DNA from: Acaryochloris sp. CCMEE 5410 | Lineage (GTDB): Bacteria > Cyanobacteriota > Cyanobacteriia > Thermosynechococcales > Thermosynechococcaceae | Direction of reading: 5' to 3' | Length of the DNA stretch: 64,000 nucleotides | Assembly (NCBI RefSeq): GCF_000238775.2 | Contig: NZ_AFEJ02000002.1 | Span: 1,287,501 to 1,351,500 of the forward strand | Part shown: positions 8,147 to 64,000 of the stretch, in pieces | Position numbering within the stretch: the stretch's first letter is position 1 | How the letters are laid out: every line of letters starts with the position of its first letter | Made by a program: the position numbers and the translations under genes | The notes under the pieces: generated by a model | Seen by the model: the letters and a program-made list of their open reading frames with translations, nothing else | Told to the model about the DNA's origin: nothing | Databases searched by the model: none

Positions 8147-10228
8147 TTATGCCGTAGCCAATAGATTCTGATAGGCCGTCTCGATCAGCTCACAGTCGGT
8201 AGAGACGGCCTGCTCTAAATTCTCTAAGCGAGCAACTTCCGTTTGGCGATCGATCTCTCGTGAGTTTTTCTGCTCTAGGAGGTTGTCTAACTCTTGTTTG
8301 CGAGACTGGATATCCTCTTGCAAGCGCTGCATCACCTCTTGGTTGTAGGCATCAAAACAGTCTTGGACCGAGCTATAAATGGGCTGGTATTTTTCCTGGG
8401 CAATTTGGGGTAGACATTTCACAAACTCTTCTTTCGTCGCCTTGGTCAATTGTTTGCGGGCATGATCCGCTTGCAACGCCCCAATGCCTAATCCCACCAA
8501 TGCAAAAGTAATCGGCCCCAACATAATGCCAAAGACGGATGAAGCAATCAGGGCAATGCCAGCAGAGGTGAAGAAGTTGAGCATAATGCTCTGGAAGTCA
8601 AACCCCGTAACGGCCATTGCCGCCCCGCCGATATTGCCAGAGGCGAGGGAGAATAAACCCATTGCCCATTTAGCCCATCCAGGTACGTTATCATTGGACT
8701 GACGTTTGGGACCGCGAGCATTCATATTTTGCCCCGTCAATTTTTCGGTAATTCGGTCGGTAATTCTGGCATAAGAGTTACCGTATTGCTCAGCACTTTT
8801 AGACAGTTCTTCGAAGGCATCTTTTAAGTCCCGCTCGGCGCGGATGCTCCAAGCAAAGAACTTATCATTGACATACTGCTGAAAGGCTTGTTGAAAAGCA
8901 GCGTTAAAGGCTTCCCGGCGTCCTTGACTAAATAGATCCAGCAACTCTAGATCAGGGGGTTGATATTTGAGGAAGTCTTGATCAAAGGTTGCCTCTAAAT
9001 CGAATATATAGGTGCGAAATGAATCGGCAATCGAACGCGATCGCTGATCTCGCATCCGATGAATATCTTCTCTAAAGTTCTCACCAATTTCTTTCAAATC
9101 CTCAAATTCCGGCTCGACGGACTCAATGCGTTGCTCTAATTCCTGAACGCTCTGATCTAACAGGGGAATCCGTCGATTTGTGGCATCATGAACTCGGTTG
9201 AGAGCTTGTCGAGCCAAGGTTCGGGCTTGCCGCAATTCTGCGATCGCGCGCTCCTGAGTCAGGAACGTATTCAGTGAGGCCAAAAAGTCGGGAAATCCGG
9301 TGCCCTCTAAGTTAGCATCCGTATCTTTCACTCGCTTGCGGAGAGCCTGCAAGGCTGAAACGGGAAATACCCGCTCTTCATAGAGGTCATAGCCATCGAC
9401 TTGGCAGTATTCTGCCAGGTTGGCATGAAAGACTTTATGGAGTTTGCGGGTAGCATCTTCCAATTCGTCTGGATCATCGGGGTCAATCAGACTTTCCTTA
9501 ATTTGGTCCCAAGCATTAATCAAAAAGAAGATCGACAATCCCCGATCTTTAATATAGTTCTCGAGGTAGCGACGTTCAGCCAGGGTGCAAGGCTGAGTGG
9601 CTCGCAGTACAAACAGAATGGCATGACAGTTTTGGATAAAACCTAGGGAGAGATCGTTTCTGGCTTCCGTATCGTTTAAGCCTGGGCTATCGACAATCTC
9701 AACCCCTTTCTCTAACAACGGCAGCGGATACTCGACCACGGCATGGCTCACATCTGGGAAGGCAATCTGCTTTTGTTCTTCTAGCTGCTTTGCTTCTTCT
9801 GGGTCAATGGTGTAGCGGTCTTTGAAGCTAGCAAAGTCAATTTGTTCGGGGGATTTACCATCATTGAAGTGGACGGTTACAGTTTTATCGGGACCATATC
9901 GCAAGATGGTCAGCAGGGCTGTACAGGGATTGACGTCACTGGGCAGTAAGTTTTCTCCAATCAAAGCGTTGAGGAAGGTGCTTTTCCCTCGCTTCATATC
10001 TCCTAGAACCATCAACCGGAAAACTCCCTGCTTTAAGTTGCGGCAGGCGACACTCACGTCTTCAATTTCTTGTTGAAGCTGCAATGATCCAGAGGCGGAT
10101 TCTCCAGCCCGTTCAGCATCTTCTAAGGTTTCGGCAATGCTGGATAGGTGGGAGGCAATTTCCTGGCGGATTTGAGAAATTCGATCTAAATCTTCCAGGA
10201 AGCTAGCGGTTTCAACGGAATTACTCAT
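8147..10228 (-). CDS. Dynamin-like GTPase (long form, about 693 aa)
   Basis: This is the second bacterial dynamin-like protein. Counting from the ATG at 10228, the P-loop GDMKRGKST is at residues 76-84, followed by G3 DSPG and G4 NAWD. A long helical stalk follows, then a hydrophobic hairpin (SAGIALIASSVFGIMLGP onwards) suited to membrane insertion, then a coiled coil to the C terminus. The open frame extends upstream to a TTG at 10330, but that would overlap the preceding HAD gene and add residues unlike the family, so I prefer 10228. It converges on the STAND gene across 69 nt. Sequence divergence from the 557-residue GTPase suggests a heterotypic pair and not a recent duplication. Confidence 0.87.
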   Translation of the reverse strand: MSNSVETASFLEDLDRISQIRQEIASHLSSIAETLEDAERAGESASGSLQLQQEIEDVSVACRNLKQGVFRLMVLGDMKRGKSTFLNALIGENLLPSDVNPCTALLTILRYGPDKTVTVHFNDGKSPEQIDFASFKDRYTIDPEEAKQLEEQKQIAFPDVSHAVVEYPLPLLEKGVEIVDSPGLNDTEARNDLSLGFIQNCHAILFVLRATQPCTLAERRYLENYIKDRGLSIFFLINAWDQIKESLIDPDDPDELEDATRKLHKVFHANLAEYCQVDGYDLYEERVFPVSALQALRKRVKDTDANLEGTGFPDFLASLNTFLTQERAIAELRQARTLARQALNRVHDATNRRIPLLDQSVQELEQRIESVEPEFEDLKEIGENFREDIHRMRDQRSRSIADSFRTYIFDLEATFDQDFLKYQPPDLELLDLFSQGRREAFNAAFQQAFQQYVNDKFFAWSIRAERDLKDAFEELSKSAEQYGNSYARITDRITEKLTGQNMNARGPKRQSNDNVPGWAKWAMGLFSLASGNIGGAAMAVTGFDFQSIMLNFFTSAGIALIASSVFGIMLGPITFALVGLGIGALQADHARKQLTKATKEEFVKCLPQIAQEKYQPIYSSVQDCFDAYNQEVMQRLQEDIQSRKQELDNLLEQKNSREIDRQTEVARLENLEQAVSTDCELIETAYQNLLATA

Positions 10229-10316
10229 AGTGGAGGAAGGTAAGGCTGCTTTTCCAGCATACCCATCTGCACTTTTAAATCCACCGATAAGCCTGAGAGA
10301 GTCTGCCAACCCTTCA

Positions 10317-10967
10317 CTAGGCAGACTCAAGCGATAGATGCCCTTGACTCAGGCTTTGAAGAATCTGATCAGGGTGCTCCAGTAAAAAATTAGGGGTTTT
10401 CTCCGCAAGAACTGTTCGGTCATTAAACCCCCAACAAACGGCAATACTAGTTAAACCAACCTGTTTAGCTGCCTTCACATCATTAATTTCATCACCCACA
10501 TAAACCAATTCTTTAGGGTCAGTGGCCTTGAGTCTAGCCAATTTTTTTAGCGTCCGTCTCTTCCCCGATAGAATCTGACCACCATAAATAAATTCAAAGA
10601 GATGATCGATAGCATATTTCTGAAGAACATACTCAACATTCCTGCGAGAATTAGCAGTAACAATCCCTAAACGATAACCTTCAGACTTCAAATTATGGAG
10701 GGCGGTTTCGATGCCTTCGACTAACGATAAATCGTCAATACTATGAGTCAGCTCCTGCCGAAAACGCTGCAAATAGCAAAGGGATCTCCATTTGGGAATC
10801 CCTAATTCTTGAGCAATTTCTTGAATCCCTAACTTCCGCATTAGCTCGATTTGAACCGGAGATAGAGGTTCATATCGAAAATCTCTAGCTAGGCGATTGG
10901 TGGCTTCGATAAATATGCCAAGGGAATCGGCAAGGGTGCCGTCAAAATCAAAAACGATCAAGCGCAT
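10317..10967 (-). CDS. HAD-superfamily hydrolase, phosphoglycolate phosphatase-like
   Basis: This 216-residue protein has the HAD nucleophile motif DFDGTLADS (Asp7 and Asp9), a helical cap, motif II in VTANSRR and the metal-binding motif IV VGDEINDVKAA. Such enzymes remove phosphate from small phosphometabolites, phosphoglycolate being the best-known substrate of close relatives. The substrate cannot be fixed from sequence. It lies 40 nt downstream of pcrA and just ahead of the long dynamin gene on the same strand, so these may share a transcript. Confidence 0.85.
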   Translation of the reverse strand: MRLIVFDFDGTLADSLGIFIEATNRLARDFRYEPLSPVQIELMRKLGIQEIAQELGIPKWRSLCYLQRFRQELTHSIDDLSLVEGIETALHNLKSEGYRLGIVTANSRRNVEYVLQKYAIDHLFEFIYGGQILSGKRRTLKKLARLKATDPKELVYVGDEINDVKAAKQVGLTSIAVCWGFNDRTVLAEKTPNFLLEHPDQILQSLSQGHLSLESA

Positions 10968-53185: not shown

Positions 53186-53440
53186 ATGAACATTATTTCC
53201 TTTAGTGAAGCCCGTAGCAAACTGAAAGCAGTCTTAGATCGAGTGGCAGAGGATGCAGACTATACCATCATCACCCGACGAGATGCCGATGATGCAGTGG
53301 TCATGTCTCTGGAGTCTTTCAACAGCCTGCTAGAAACGGTTCACTTGTTAAAATCGCCTGCAAATGCTGCGCATCTAGAACAATCCATTGCCCAATATCG
53401 ACAAGGGCAAGTCACCGAGCGCGATCTTTTGGATGAGTAA
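53186..53440 (+). CDS. Phd/YefM family antitoxin
   Basis: This 84-residue antitoxin begins NIISFSEARSKLKAVLDRVA and continues YTIITRRDADDAVVMSLESF, the DNA-binding fold of Phd/YefM. The acidic C-terminal tail should wrap and neutralise the toxin. It overlaps the toxin gene by 8 nt. Antitoxins of this kind repress their own operon through palindromes upstream. Confidence 0.94.
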   Translation: MNIISFSEARSKLKAVLDRVAEDADYTIITRRDADDAVVMSLESFNSLLETVHLLKSPANAAHLEQSIAQYRQGQVTERDLLDE

Positions 53441-53690
53441 TCGCAAATTGGCTTGGACCGATGCGGCCTGGAACGGCTACTGGCAAGGACAGGACAAAAA
53501 AACGCTAAAGCGAATCAATAAACTTATTCAGGCGACGAAGAAGCAGCCGTTTGAAGGCATTGGTAAACCTGAAGCGCTACGTGAAAACCTATCGGGCTTT
53601 TGGTCTCGCCGCATAGACGAGGCTCATCGATTAGTCTATGCCGTTGATGATGCCTATCTGACGATTATTTCCTGCCGATATCATTATTAA
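53433..53690 (+). CDS. yoeB: YoeB/Txe family mRNA-interferase toxin
   Basis: This 85-residue RelE-fold toxin cleaves ribosome-bound mRNA. It has AWTDAAWNGYWQGQDKKTLK at the start, PFEGIGKPEAL, FWSRRIDEAHRLVYAV and a C-terminal SCRYHY, which supplies the usual catalytic His/Tyr tail. The ATG at 53433 lies within the end of the antitoxin gene, giving coupled translation. All catalytic positions look intact. Confidence 0.95.
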   Translation: MSNRKLAWTDAAWNGYWQGQDKKTLKRINKLIQATKKQPFEGIGKPEALRENLSGFWSRRIDEAHRLVYAVDDAYLTIISCRYHY

Positions 53691-55283: not shown

Positions 55284-55979
55284 CTAGAATGTACCGTTCC
55301 ATGCATCAATAATAGTCAGCATCCTCTTATCTCCTAATCCCTCTACGCGGCTGACTACATCAGATAAAGAGTGGAAAGCCCTTTTCTTTCGTTCTTTAAC
55401 GATACTTGCTTTGATTTTTTCCAATGTCTTACCTGTAATATTAGCCCTTCTTAACTTCAAAGTGAGTTCGACTTCGCTCAGGCTGTTCAATGCTTCTAGA
55501 GCATCAACTTTTTGGGGAACTAGGCTTTTTAATTCAGAAAGCTCATTATTTAGCCTCTGATTCTCCCTTTTAAATTCATCTTTAATATCAGCTATGGCTC
55601 TGTCCAATCGAGCTTCAATATTTGACAGTCGCTGATCAGGTACATAGTTCGTAGATATAGAGTCGGATGGGGCTGGTTTACTAAGAATAGAGATTTGCTT
55701 AGAAACATTTCCCTTTTCTTTTGGTGAGATTACAAATGCACTCACCATTTCTCCACTTCTGGGATTAATTTCCTTAGCTCTTACAGCACCATAATACTCA
55801 AAGTGACCATCAAGAACTTCATATGATTCAGGGCCTGTTTGATCCAAGACTAATGGCTTGAGCAAGATCTCAGATTCAAGAATACTCTTTGCAAGTTTAT
55901 CTAGATCATCTTCGTCAAAACTAGAGCGAGGTTGATTGGAGGTAATACTCTTGACATCTACCAAATAATATTCAGTCAT
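55284..55979 (-). CDS. ParB-fold protein with coiled coil and helix-hairpin-helix tail
   Basis: This 231-residue protein has an N-terminal ParB/sulfiredoxin-like domain (ITSNQPRSSFD; ESYEVLDGHFEYYGAVRA) in which the usual GERR motif reads DGHFEYYG. No KorB-type HTH follows; instead there is a coiled coil (about 115-155, EARLDRAIADIKDEFKRENQ) and a C-terminal segment with a helix-hairpin-helix-like motif (FHSLSDVVSRVEGLGDKRML). It starts 3 nt after the nuclease-ParA gene, so the two are coupled. Centromere binding is uncertain without the HTH. Confidence 0.8.
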   Translation of the reverse strand: MTEYYLVDVKSITSNQPRSSFDEDDLDKLAKSILESEILLKPLVLDQTGPESYEVLDGHFEYYGAVRAKEINPRSGEMVSAFVISPKEKGNVSKQISILSKPAPSDSISTNYVPDQRLSNIEARLDRAIADIKDEFKRENQRLNNELSELKSLVPQKVDALEALNSLSEVELTLKLRRANITGKTLEKIKASIVKERKKRAFHSLSDVVSRVEGLGDKRMLTIIDAWNGTF

Positions 55980-55982
55980 TTT

Positions 55983-57374
55983 TTACTCGCTAATCTTGTT
56001 CAATACCTCAGCAGCCAAATTACGAAACTCTTTAACTGATTCAGAATCACCACCGAATGCAAAAATTGATTTAGGGTCAGGTAAGTTATGAACACCAGCC
56101 ATAATTGTTTTATTGACACAATGGGATAGTGCTGTACGCTCATAGATTATGCTTTCCATGATCGGGAAACTATAGTGATCTATAATATTTTGCTTTTGCT
56201 TAGGAAATACGAACTCTAAATACCTAGTATTACTTAAAATTTTAGAAGGTAAGACACCTATGACATTGAGCTTTTCTTTCCCTATACTTGTTCGTGTCTC
56301 ATCAATTTCTGAGATAAAGTCTTGAACATTCGATAGCCCTTGATTGGCAAAGGGTTTTAAGTCAGAAGGGATAATAAGATAATCGGCAGCAATTAATGCG
56401 ATTTCGGCATAAACATCTCTAGATGGAGGAGCATCAATTATGACAATATCATAATCATCTTCAGCTTGTTGAATTTTATGATGCAGACGGAATCTTGAAG
56501 CGGCAAATCGAGTCAGCTTGTCTTGTTTGTCAATCAAGTTAATATGTGAAGGAATAACATCAATCTCTGGGCTGTTAAATAGTTGAGATGATTGTTTTAG
56601 ATCTGAGATAAAATTAAACTCTCCAGATTCAATTAAATGATAGACATTATTGTCCTTTAAATTATCATCCTCATTAAATTGGAATTTGATTAGACCAGTG
56701 GCAAATGTTGAATTTGCTTGAGCATCTATATCAACCAGAAGAACTCTCTTTCCCTTATTCTGCAAGGCAGCAGCAAGGTTGACTGAAACAGTTGTTTTAC
56801 CAACGCCACCTTTATTATGGTAAATAGCTATTACTTTCATTTTTTGTCCCCATTTTTTAAATTCATTTCTGCTGTGTTTTGTCTGATTTACTTCTGCAAA
56901 GTCAACTCTATTATTTTGAGTGATGATAGGCATATTACCTGGTAGATTCAAATTCTCGCTACCGATGATTTCTCTAATCAACCCGATATTTTTGTGGACT
57001 TCTCTTCCAAAGCATCGAAATAGAAGATCAAGAATATTTCGACTTTGCTTGTAAATTCTGATTTCTCTCCCATTAGTTAAGAGACCAAATTCTACCCCAA
57101 GCTTATTGAGATATTCCTTAAGCTGGGATACGTGTCTCTCTAAATCCTGTTTAGGATGCTTTGTCTCTATAATGAGACACGGTTTCTCATGTGAAATATC
57201 CGTGCAAGAAACTATTCGATTTTTAAATGCCAAAAAATCTAAGCGAATGTTGCCAAACTTTCGTTCTCGATACCAGGTTTCAGGTGTAAACCCCAATTCT
57301 GGAAGCAAATATTGAATAACTAATTTTCCTTCAACATCTCTTTCGTTAAAACAACAGCTAGGGTCGAACACCAA
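55983..57374 (-). CDS. HsdR-type nuclease domain fused to ParA ATPase
   Basis: This 463-residue protein has two parts. Residues about 10-140 resemble the N-terminal PD-(D/E)XK nuclease region of type I restriction subunit R, with Asp46 in RLDFLAF, Glu70 and Lys72 in IIETKHP, and the QLKEYLNKLG...LLTNGREIRIYK tail. Residues about 179-460 form a ParA ATPase with deviant Walker A KGGVGKTT (188-195), DAQANST and IIDAPPS. An internal ATG at 56840 could give free ParA. The fusion is not a standard plasmid partition protein. It may tie DNA cleavage to ParA switching. Confidence 0.85.
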   Translation of the reverse strand: MVFDPSCCFNERDVEGKLVIQYLLPELGFTPETWYRERKFGNIRLDFLAFKNRIVSCTDISHEKPCLIIETKHPKQDLERHVSQLKEYLNKLGVEFGLLTNGREIRIYKQSRNILDLLFRCFGREVHKNIGLIREIIGSENLNLPGNMPIITQNNRVDFAEVNQTKHSRNEFKKWGQKMKVIAIYHNKGGVGKTTVSVNLAAALQNKGKRVLLVDIDAQANSTFATGLIKFQFNEDDNLKDNNVYHLIESGEFNFISDLKQSSQLFNSPEIDVIPSHINLIDKQDKLTRFAASRFRLHHKIQQAEDDYDIVIIDAPPSRDVYAEIALIAADYLIIPSDLKPFANQGLSNVQDFISEIDETRTSIGKEKLNVIGVLPSKILSNTRYLEFVFPKQKQNIIDHYSFPIMESIIYERTALSHCVNKTIMAGVHNLPDPKSIFAFGGDSESVKEFRNLAAEVLNKISE

Positions 57375-61961: not shown

Positions 61962-63025
61962 GGCACTGGTCTACTAACAGGGCACATACCTAAACCCTTT
62001 ATTGGTGAGGAGTTCTAGTGTGCTCAACGGACGAGAACAAAATCCCATCTCCATTGCTGGTGTGGTCTGCTTACTGAGCCCCAATGGGGTCTAACCCAGT
62101 TATGAATCAGGCGTTGTACATCTAGCACTCGCTGTAACCCGACCGCTTCTTAGCGTAGAGATTCTGCCGTCTTCGATAAGCACTACATCGTCTCCTCAAG
62201 GCAGCATTGTGAGCCTCATTATGATTGGCATGGACCTCAGACCCTAGACTGATAGCGGTAAAGGGATGCTCTGCTTTCACCCACTCTACTCGCCGATTCC
62301 CCTGAGACCCTTTAACTTTCATCGCGACTTCTAACCCCTCTCGCCAAACCTTGCGATGCCCATAGTCAGGATGACACTCCTCACCATTGAGATAGACATT
62401 GGCGAGCTTCCAAAGTTCTTGTCCATAACGCCTCTCACCATCGGTAAACCATCGAATCCCATCACAGGCTTTGACCCACTCCCAAGCTGAGTAAACGCCA
62501 TTTGCAAAAGTTGTGCATCCTTGAGGCCAGCTTGTGCTGTCAACCAATAGCGGCTTTCGCGTTCAAGGAAATGGATGGTCCAGCCCTGGGATTGGCTGGG
62601 GGGAAGATTTTTGCCTACACGCGTGTAAACTTCATCCCTTCTACCGTCACATCAGAGGCTGCTGGTGCGGGAGGTGACCAGTTCTGTGCTTGGTCTGCTA
62701 GGCGTTTTTCCCAACGCATAATGGTGGTATGAGATTTACCGAAAGTTCGACCTGCAGCACGAATACCCATCCCTTCGGTGCGAGCTTTGATGGCATAGCT
62801 CACTACTGAACTAGCGGTGCGTAAGCGAGCCATTGGGGTACCCGTGCGTTCGTTGAAACGCCGATTGCAATCCTTACACTGATATCGCTGGACTAATATC
62901 CCATCTTGCAGGCTATCAAAGCCGCGCTTTAGGATCTTCTCGCTTAGACAATATGGGCATTCCATTGATCTACATTAGGTTGCGTCGGAAGCATTATAGC
63001 TAGATCCTGCTAACAGACCAGTGCC
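61962..63025. mobile_element. Decayed IS1-type element with intact inverted ends
   Basis: Perfect 11-bp inverted ends, GGCACTGGTCT (61962-61972) and AGACCAGTGCC (63015-63025), enclose about 1.06 kb holding one frameshifted transposase. I found no convincing flanking duplication. The right end sits directly against a lipase-gene fragment. Confidence 0.75.
62122..62965 (-). pseudogene. IS1 family transposase, two frameshifts
   Basis: The N-terminal piece (62615-62965) has an InsA-like zinc-finger pattern CPYC...CKDC and a HTH (GIRAAGRTFGKSHTTIMRWE). The C-terminal piece (62122-62547) has IRWFTDGERRYGQELWKLAN and the end SEVHANHNEAHNAALRRRCS. Between them continuous sequence (VYTRVGKNLPPSQSQGWTIH) runs in a third frame. 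Comparing frames, single-base losses near 62,630 and 62,510 explain both breaks, so the enzyme is dead. Confidence 0.85.
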
Positions 63026-63182
63026 AGTCAGTGGGGTTTACACCTATGGACAGCCCAGAGTAGGCGATCAAACGTTTACAAACAAATTCAATCCCCCCTT
63101 AAGGTCTAAAACCTTCCGCGTGATCAATAACAATGATGTTGTCGCTAGAATTCCCAACATTGGCTATACAGATGTAGGGCAA
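63026..63182 (+). pseudogene. Fragment of a class 3 lipase gene
   Basis: In frame, about 52 codons read GVYTYGQPRVGDQTFTNKFN then TFRVINNNDVVARIPNIGYT, which is the region after the catalytic serine in class 3 (triacylglycerol) lipases, including the catalytic Asp region. Both flanks are IS ends, so the GxSxG part and the C-terminal His are missing. No matching 5' piece was found left of the IS1-type element. Confidence 0.7.
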
Positions 63183-64000
63183 GTTAAGGGGAGCATGTCA
63201 CCTTTGCATTCCAATTAAGCCATTGAGGTAAGCACACCGATGTGCCAGCACTTGCGGGACATTACTTTCATTCCACTGCGCCCCTGAAATTTTGACTCTG
63301 CGACTAATCTGCTTGATAGCAGATTCAACAGCCCCAGACCCAATAGAGCAGATTTGCTCACTCTGGTAATAGTCATAATTGACGATCCGATGCCGATGTT
63401 TGCGAACATAGTTGCAAAAGACTTGGGCCTGCTTTTCTTCAATGACTCAAATAGAGCCAAGGTTTCATCAACCTTCCCCTGCCATAAGAGCTGCTCAGCC
63501 TGGTGCAGACGTTTGAGGGACCCACCGACCTTATGAAGATTTTCCACCAGATGGTACCAGTCCAGAATCTCTCGCCGTTGCTCAGGTATGCTCAGCTGAC
63601 GAATGATATTCCAAATGCCATCATGACCATCCCTAAACAAGTCAGTGGAGAGGCTAACGGTTGCTGGTGAGTCCAGTCAATGAGCCGGGCATTATTGTGA
63701 TAATCCGCGATGAGTCCCACATGCGTTGCCAGGGTTTTATAGTCTTTCCACTGACAAGGGTGTCCTAAAGGGGTGCGGATGCGCACTTTGCCACCATCTA
63801 CACTCACTTCGGTTAAGCTTCATGAGCCTGGGGGTAGGAAACCGTTGTTGATGCACCAATCGCTGCTGGGTTTTGGCTGGTACCTGAATCCCAGTTAAAT
63901 AAGCCACATCTTTAGCAGTTTGAGCATAGGAGACATTGGCACTGATGCGCAAGCAACAATTCTCTAAATGAGGACTGATTTGACGATAGGGGGAAACGGC
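63183..64000. mobile_element. Partial ISKra4-type element (cut by window edge)
   Basis: The left boundary is placed where lipase-like sequence ends and transposase-associated sequence begins (GGGGAGCATGTCACC). The element continues past the window. Its transposase differs from that of the element at 3112-4561. Confidence 0.6.
63198..64000 (-). pseudogene. ISKra4 family transposase, frameshifted and partial
   Basis: Read across frames, the C terminus is intact as QICSIGSGAVESAIKQISRR and NVPQVLAHRCAYLNGLIGMQ, ending at 63198. Upstream parts lie in other frames: RDGHDGIWNIIRQLSIPEQR (63215-63640), SVDGGKVRIRTPLGHPCQWK (63592-63807) and a portion up to 63952. At least three frame changes, near 63,455, 63,630 and 63,810, show it is inactive. 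The 5' end is beyond the window. Confidence 0.8.

Follow-up and report, generated by a model that had tools for sequence, protein, structure and literature searches.

The nuclease-ParA fusion gene

The analysed stretch of 64,000 nucleotides from Acaryochloris sp. CCMEE 5410, referred to below as the window, carries two adjacent genes on its reverse strand. The first (55983..57374) starts with TTG and encodes a protein of 463 residues, in which an HsdR_N-type PD-(D/E)XK domain is joined by a linker to a ParA ATPase. Three nucleotides (AAA) downstream lies the gene of a ParB-fold partner protein of 231 residues (55284..55979, reverse strand; ATG start). The N-terminal domain of the fusion (residues 1-143; 56946..57374, reverse strand) was delimited on the basis of Pfam matches, residue conservation and an AlphaFold model, and scored above the curated Pfam cut-offs for both HSDR_N_2 (33.1 bits, cut-off 25) and HSDR_N (31.0 bits, cut-off 25.1). 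PD-(D/E)XK domains are recognised by an Asp, an ExK motif and a Glu in helix 1, and the fusion shares this set with the HsdR N-terminal domain families, since E15, D46, E70 and K72 are all found in the window protein. D46, E70 and K72 are invariant in the respective alignment columns of 81/81 N-domains, among which E11, E15, K17, H81 and Y88 are likewise conserved. In a separate, earlier alignment, 47 of 48 long ORFs have D46 and K72, the sole exception being locus L114, where (8774-10345) the same type of ParA follows a helicase-type AAA_12 domain that replaces the nuclease.

The AlphaFold model of the fusion reached a mean pLDDT of 81.4, with low confidence for residues 51-60 and for the unconserved linker (residues 144-178; 56841..56945, reverse strand). 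In the N-terminal part, the model runs through a helix (11-26), strands 34-40, 43-49 (containing D46) and 67-71 (containing E70), a helix (78-92) and further strands, an order that by eye resembles the core of PD-(D/E)XK proteins. As the matches of the whole fusion model in the structure library were taken up by ParA folds, the nuclease fold has no library comparison of its own, and a search of PDB sequences with the N-domain profile gave one match below E 0.001, namely 7ue2, named RPB_PLP3_R6. We regard the nuclease activity of the domain as a prediction from its sequence.

The ParA domain (residues 179-463; 55986..56840, reverse strand) matches AAA_31 over residues 179-360 (183.8 bits, E=3.7e-54) and Soj/ParA structures with Z scores of about 30-33, and its deviant Walker A motif KGGVGKTT is intact at residues 188-195. 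The fusion and its intact motifs, including Asp46, Glu70 and Lys72, had been proposed in a sequence-only reading of this DNA, and the Pfam matches bear this out. In an alignment of 36 relatives, every sequence matched both HSDR_N_2 and AAA_31, so the fusion is not a chance join. The same reading had stated that this is not a type I restriction system. Type I HsdR has SF2 helicase domains, whereas the fusion continues into the ParA ATPase and matches ResIII at E=0.026 only, below the Pfam cut-off; a type I restriction subunit was therefore ruled out. Concerning the rest of such a system, hsdM and hsdS are absent among the eight annotated neighbouring ORFs of the window, and these eight do not constitute a defence island.

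A predicted internal start at the domain junction

The first residue of the ParA domain, M179, is encoded by an in-frame ATG (56838..56840, reverse strand), from which ParA alone (285 aa) is predicted to be translated. A weak Shine-Dalgarno (SD)-like motif, GGGGA (56847..56851, reverse strand), lies 5' of this ATG and was scored as SD-like in the counts given below. Among intact fusions, the codon at the junction was a start codon in 115 of 115 cases (109 ATG and 6 GTG), with an unconserved linker preceding it. SD-like 4-mers were found before 69 of these 115 junction starts and before 64 of the 115 gene starts, but before 24 of 671 ATGs elsewhere inside the genes. This enrichment weakens as de-replication gets stricter: after clustering at 75% identity, the motif preceded 13/24 junctions and 7/130 other ATGs, and at 70% identity 5/16 and 6/82, respectively (p 0.016), while a stricter SD motif at 70% gave 3/16 and 5/82 (p 0.12). 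In addition, ParA-only relatives at six loci (L086, L102, L113, L117, L118 and L119) begin at the residue corresponding to the junction start. A divergent fusion on a Nostoc plasmid has no Met at this position. Judged from the start codon at the junction of all 115 intact fusions and the excess of SD-like motifs over other internal ATGs, the gene probably makes two products, the full fusion and ParA alone, a prediction best supported in Nostoc-like loci.

The ParB-like partner

The partner of the window matches ParB_N with 30.9 bits (Pfam cut-off 26.3), and its AlphaFold model has a mean pLDDT of 85.8. Residues 1-103 (55671..55979, reverse strand) adopt a ParB-CTPase-like fold in the model, resembling structures of ParB, Noc and PadC with Z scores of about 11-12 (7bnk_B, Z 11.9). 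They are followed by a long helix, probably a coiled coil (residues 114-153; 55521..55640, reverse strand), and by a helix-hairpin-helix (HhH)-like domain (residues 156-231; 55287..55514, reverse strand), which is probably DNA-binding according to structure matches and weak HHH_6 and DUF655 hits. This C-terminal part matched 5ol9 (Z 8.3), 2edu (Z 8.0) and 8dss (ComEA; Z 7.0), whose domains we take to be of the HhH type, but helical parts of RsmH-type methyltransferases, 1wg8 (Z 8.1) among them, matched equally well (Z 7-8), so that the HhH-like label is only suggestive.

Across 36 partner proteins, ParB_N was matched by 35, and the C-terminal parts matched DUF655 (10), HHH_6 (7), Rho_N (3), SAP (2) and Methyltransf_5 (2), in counts that include matches with E up to 0.01, several of them below the Pfam cut-off. 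The P-motif, GxxR in canonical ParB, reads GHFE in the window partner; in the 36 proteins, its glycine (G58) is invariant, and position +3 is Glu in 33 and Arg in none. Box II is GxxR in nucleotide-binding members of the ParB-CTPase fold, as stated in parts of PMC12704722, and nucleotide binding by a partner with GxxE is therefore doubtful. Neither Pfam nor the model revealed the central helix-turn-helix (HTH) of ParB in the window partner, and the ParA-binding motif LG-R/K-GL occurred in 0/36 partners. The ParB-fold gene expected 3 nt after the fusion is thus there, with the fold and a ParB_N match above cut-off, but sequence and model indicate that it does not encode a canonical centromere-binding ParB, as the HTH and the P-motif arginine are missing and the C-terminal part is of an HhH-like or Rho_N/SAP type. 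We describe it as a ParB-fold adaptor, predicted from the model to bind DNA probably via its C-terminal domain. As a separate observation, residues 1343-1404 of a tail protein, chain B of PDB 9k3a, matched the partner profile at E=4e-9, better than Noc/ParB structures.

Distribution and conservation of the two-gene module

Relatives of the N-domain were found in 229 stretches of a species-genome collection, the best 80 of which are all cyanobacterial. Directly downstream of the fusion, 73 of these best 80 loci carry the partner, with overlapping stop and start codons in 55 of the 73; the other seven comprise six with a contig-end, split or short fusion ORF and one, L128, with a broken frame. 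In a sample of the phylum, the fusion was matched at E<=1e-25 by 67 of 386 cyanobacterial genomes, divergent types included, and the partner at E<=1e-6 in 53. As judged from the sequences, the module is a conserved two-gene operon carried by many cyanobacteria. In 60 loci fetched for comparison, a partner match lay just downstream in 54, and the remaining six were a ParA-only copy, two incomplete copies and three divergent-type loci with another partner family next to them. Among the 60 are also three split loci and, as L120, L121 and L123, three pieces that are incomplete or highly divergent.

The module might be a selfish or addiction-type cassette in which the partner restrains a harmful nuclease fusion. 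The overlap of stop and start codons and the state of the examined fusions without this partner, which are split, short, broken in frame or at the end of a contig, or, at three loci of the divergent type, accompanied by another partner family, would agree with such an arrangement. In toxin-antitoxin operons, the antitoxin gene usually comes first, whereas here the nuclease gene does, and the partner resembles a DNA-binding adaptor rather than an inhibitor. We consider this explanation very unlikely.

Loss of the catalytic residues had been named as a finding that would speak against the sequence-only reading. The residues are retained wherever the domain occurs, but six of the 60 loci (the ParA-only loci listed above) carry ParA without the nuclease domain within the fetched stretch, five of them with the partner. 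The nuclease domain is, on sequence evidence, dispensable in some lineages.

The same reading had envisaged a fusion found only in plasmid partition loci as a contrary outcome; the module is instead located mainly on chromosomes. Collections of phages and plasmids contained no record matching the fusion over 80% of the query, and nothing at E<=1e-20 for a divergent type of the fusion (L125). Within 2.9 million viral contigs, 25 stretches fitted a pattern, and none was a relative. A plasmid or phage partition locus was ruled out on the lack of a full-length plasmid or phage match and of an N-domain relative on viral contigs. The one plasmid with a related gene, from Nostoc, encodes the divergent fusion (28.9% identity over 75%; D and ExK seen by eye), with a site-specific integrase gene 5' of it and, after it, a gene whose product matches Rho_N and, below threshold, ParB_N; this plasmid also bears a gene for ParM and two further parAB pairs.

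The divergent plasmid copy raises the question of a ParABS-like partition system that came from a mobile element and whose N-terminal domain only binds DNA, like the N-terminal DNA-binding domain of other ParAs. There is a precedent in RK2 IncC, where alternative starts give a long and a short ParA and the long N-terminus modulates DNA binding, as described in the abstract of PMC2666795. The two ParA forms from one gene, IncC1 and IncC2, correspond to what we predict for the fusion. According to this abstract, which does not speak of a nuclease, oligomerisation and DNA binding are modulated by an N-terminal domain of ~100 aa in IncC1, while that of the fusion is of the nuclease type. An invariant catalytic set goes beyond the needs of DNA binding, the partner lacks the HTH and the P-motif arginine, no full-length match was found on plasmids, and the sole plasmid on which a divergent copy occurs carries parAB genes besides it. 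On balance, we find a partition system of this kind improbable.

Base composition and genomic neighbourhood

The module of the window has a GC content of 36.3%, while 36 other genes average 49.1%, with 42.7% as the lowest value. In related loci, the GC content of the fusion was below that of the neighbouring genes in 56 of 56 cases, with a mean gap of 7.2 points. As controls, the core ParA of about 294 aa was lower by 2.1 points (27/34) and valS higher by 6 points (16/16), and in a paired comparison the fusion was below core ParA in 15/15. AT-richness is not unique to the module: in the rival operon described below, the FtsK gene was lower by 2.4 points and the KAP/AAA NTPase gene by 6.2 (13/13). 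Many loci share a recurrent linkage of the module to valS, core ParA and glycosyltransferase genes, as expected of a long-resident gene. A search for parS-like sites limited to 300 bp upstream in 139 loci did not reveal widely shared palindromes or operator-like repeats; some perfect palindrome was present in 37 of the 139, against 25 expected from shuffles, and the commonest single one occurred in 3.

Swapping with a nuclease-FtsK operon

In one cyanobacterial family (f7), core ParA is present in 97 of 99 genomes, and beside it often lies either the module or a nuclease-FtsK operon, sometimes neither. The latter operon (L106:5987-11679, L244-L262) encodes a protein that combines a DEDD exonuclease, a Cas4-like PDDEXK domain and an SspH-like FtsK part, together with a KAP/AAA NTPase and a protein without Pfam match. 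Counting as intact a module that is nearly full-length in one open frame and an FtsK gene covering 650 or more of the 860 query residues in one or neighbouring pieces, 2 of the 99 genomes had both, 38 the module only, 47 the FtsK gene only and 12 neither among the matches listed (Fisher p=2e-14). With broken modules included, the numbers were 5, 39, 44 and 11, respectively, again among the matches listed (p=3e-12). As the genomes are related, these p values are guides only. Both states are held within 12 genera of f7. The module lies within 4 kb of core ParA in 27 of 40 f7 genomes, and the exclusion also holds for modules away from core ParA, with the FtsK gene present in 1/13 against 47/59. 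Remnants of the FtsK gene adjoin some modules, and the more divergent fusion type (L125) sits in the same slot beside core ParA. At the level of the phylum, 3 of 37 FtsK genomes also have the module, where about 6 are expected (p=0.17, not significant); the exclusion is seen in one family only.

These data bear on the main rival to the explanation that we favour, namely a specialised maintenance of the chromosome or nucleoid in polyploid cyanobacteria, in which ParA and the partner would spread a DNA-processing nuclease over the chromosome copies, e.g. for resolving or trimming aberrant DNA. The chromosomal location, the recurrent linkage to core ParA, the ParB-CTPase fold of the partner and its retention by five of six ParA-only versions are all compatible with such a role. 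A maintenance function fits less well with the patchy presence of the module, its exclusion by an unrelated nuclease-FtsK gene in f7, its AT-richness, the broken copies in several genomes, a partner without ParB HTH and the lack of a common palindrome in the 300 bp upstream. Taken together, we rate chromosome maintenance as unlikely.

Relation to known systems

The module has a common ParA fold (best Z about 33, for Soj), a partner of the ParB-CTPase fold and the parA-parB gene order in common with ParABS (Soj/ParA, Spo0J/ParB). Unlike in ParABS, its ParA bears a nuclease domain, and the partner has no HTH, GxxE in place of GxxR, and an HhH-like or Rho_N/SAP domain. Fusions of the ParB-CTPase fold to non-HTH domains, as seen in the partner, are reported in PMC12704722, in the main text of which HSDR, Rho and helix-hairpin-helix do not occur; DUF3850 is there, in the parts considered, the only such fusion reported consistently beside parA. 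Restriction nucleases that 'captured' HerA/FtsK ATPases have been described before (PMC10853773), and the systems concerned, e.g. DndFGH, also join a restriction-type nuclease to a genome-segregation ATPase. The ATPase of the module is of the ParA/MinD type, in contrast to HerA/FtsK in DndFGH-like systems. A ParA-type domain has likewise been proposed to act in biological conflict, as MinD/ParA-like effector domains (PMC7159879, in part), yet those domains are predicted to be inactive, while the ATPase motifs of the fusion are intact and a nuclease is attached. PADLOC-DB 2023 had no named system matching both domains, its hits being limited to weak ones, at ParA level, to the candidate PDC-M28B, and the open-licence PMC literature searched contained no paper describing a nuclease-ParA fusion. 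The parts are known, and their combination into a conserved pair of genes seems to be undescribed, in line with the earlier suggestion of an undescribed module.

Proposed role of the module

The two functions offered by the sequence-only reading were a partition system marking the DNA that carries it and a defence device. Accessory defence agrees better with how the module is distributed, with its base composition and with the swapping at its locus than self-marking partition does. Our best explanation, held tentatively and at a little under an even chance, is that an accessory DNA nuclease directed against invaders captured ParA, a chromosome-segregation motor, a proposal made by analogy with the HerA/FtsK capture discussed in parts of PMC10853773. 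It builds on the anatomy, conservation, linkage, base composition and locus swapping described above, and what it says of cleavage, target, ATP control and benefit is conjecture. Since the internal start would also yield free ParA, fusion and ParA could form dimers with two, one or no nuclease domains. ATP-bound dimers would coat DNA non-specifically, and the partner, whose C-terminal module appears swapped between clades (HhH-like or Rho_N/SAP), would mark particular DNA, be it plasmid, phage or aberrant structures, and engage ParA. Paired nuclease domains may thereby be concentrated or licensed at the marked DNA, leading to cleavage, and ATP hydrolysis would recycle the complex.

A bolder form of this proposal, which we consider possible but on the unlikely side, is an undescribed immune strategy of 'ParA capture', in which one gene provides a nucleoid-patrolling ATPase with and without a nuclease head, and a ParA/ParB positioning cycle with a swappable ParB-fold DNA-binding adaptor is used to locate DNA of plasmids or phages and cut it. 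The motors of DNA segregation and the nucleases of restriction normally belong to different systems, and here a conserved pair joins both with the active site intact; if the proposal is true, machinery that positions DNA in cells would have been recruited for its destruction. Culturable cyanobacteria offer a testable system, in which one gene is predicted to give two products and alternative nuclease systems take each other's place in a slot on the chromosome.

Additional observations at the locus

About 1.6 kb off the module, the window contains a Phd/YefM-YoeB toxin-antitoxin pair (53186-53690). In six related loci (L084, L085, L087, L089, L090 and L092), the module is directly followed by a gene of the Uma2-type putative endonuclease family, assigned by Pfam on the member from L084. 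The window genome comprises 8.1 Mb, and the copy of its nearest named relative, Acaryochloris sp. CRU_2_0, stems from a metagenome assembly in which frame changes break the gene. On a different contig, the window genome carries a second, divergent nuclease-ParA copy (L243:3711-6569) with an insert of ~1.2 kb, after which comes a weak ParB_N-like piece. Further ORFs of the window (62122-63952) resemble, by eye, pieces of insertion-sequence transposases, with Pfam returning almost nothing on three of them, and one of these ORFs resembles an ORF inside the insert of the second copy.
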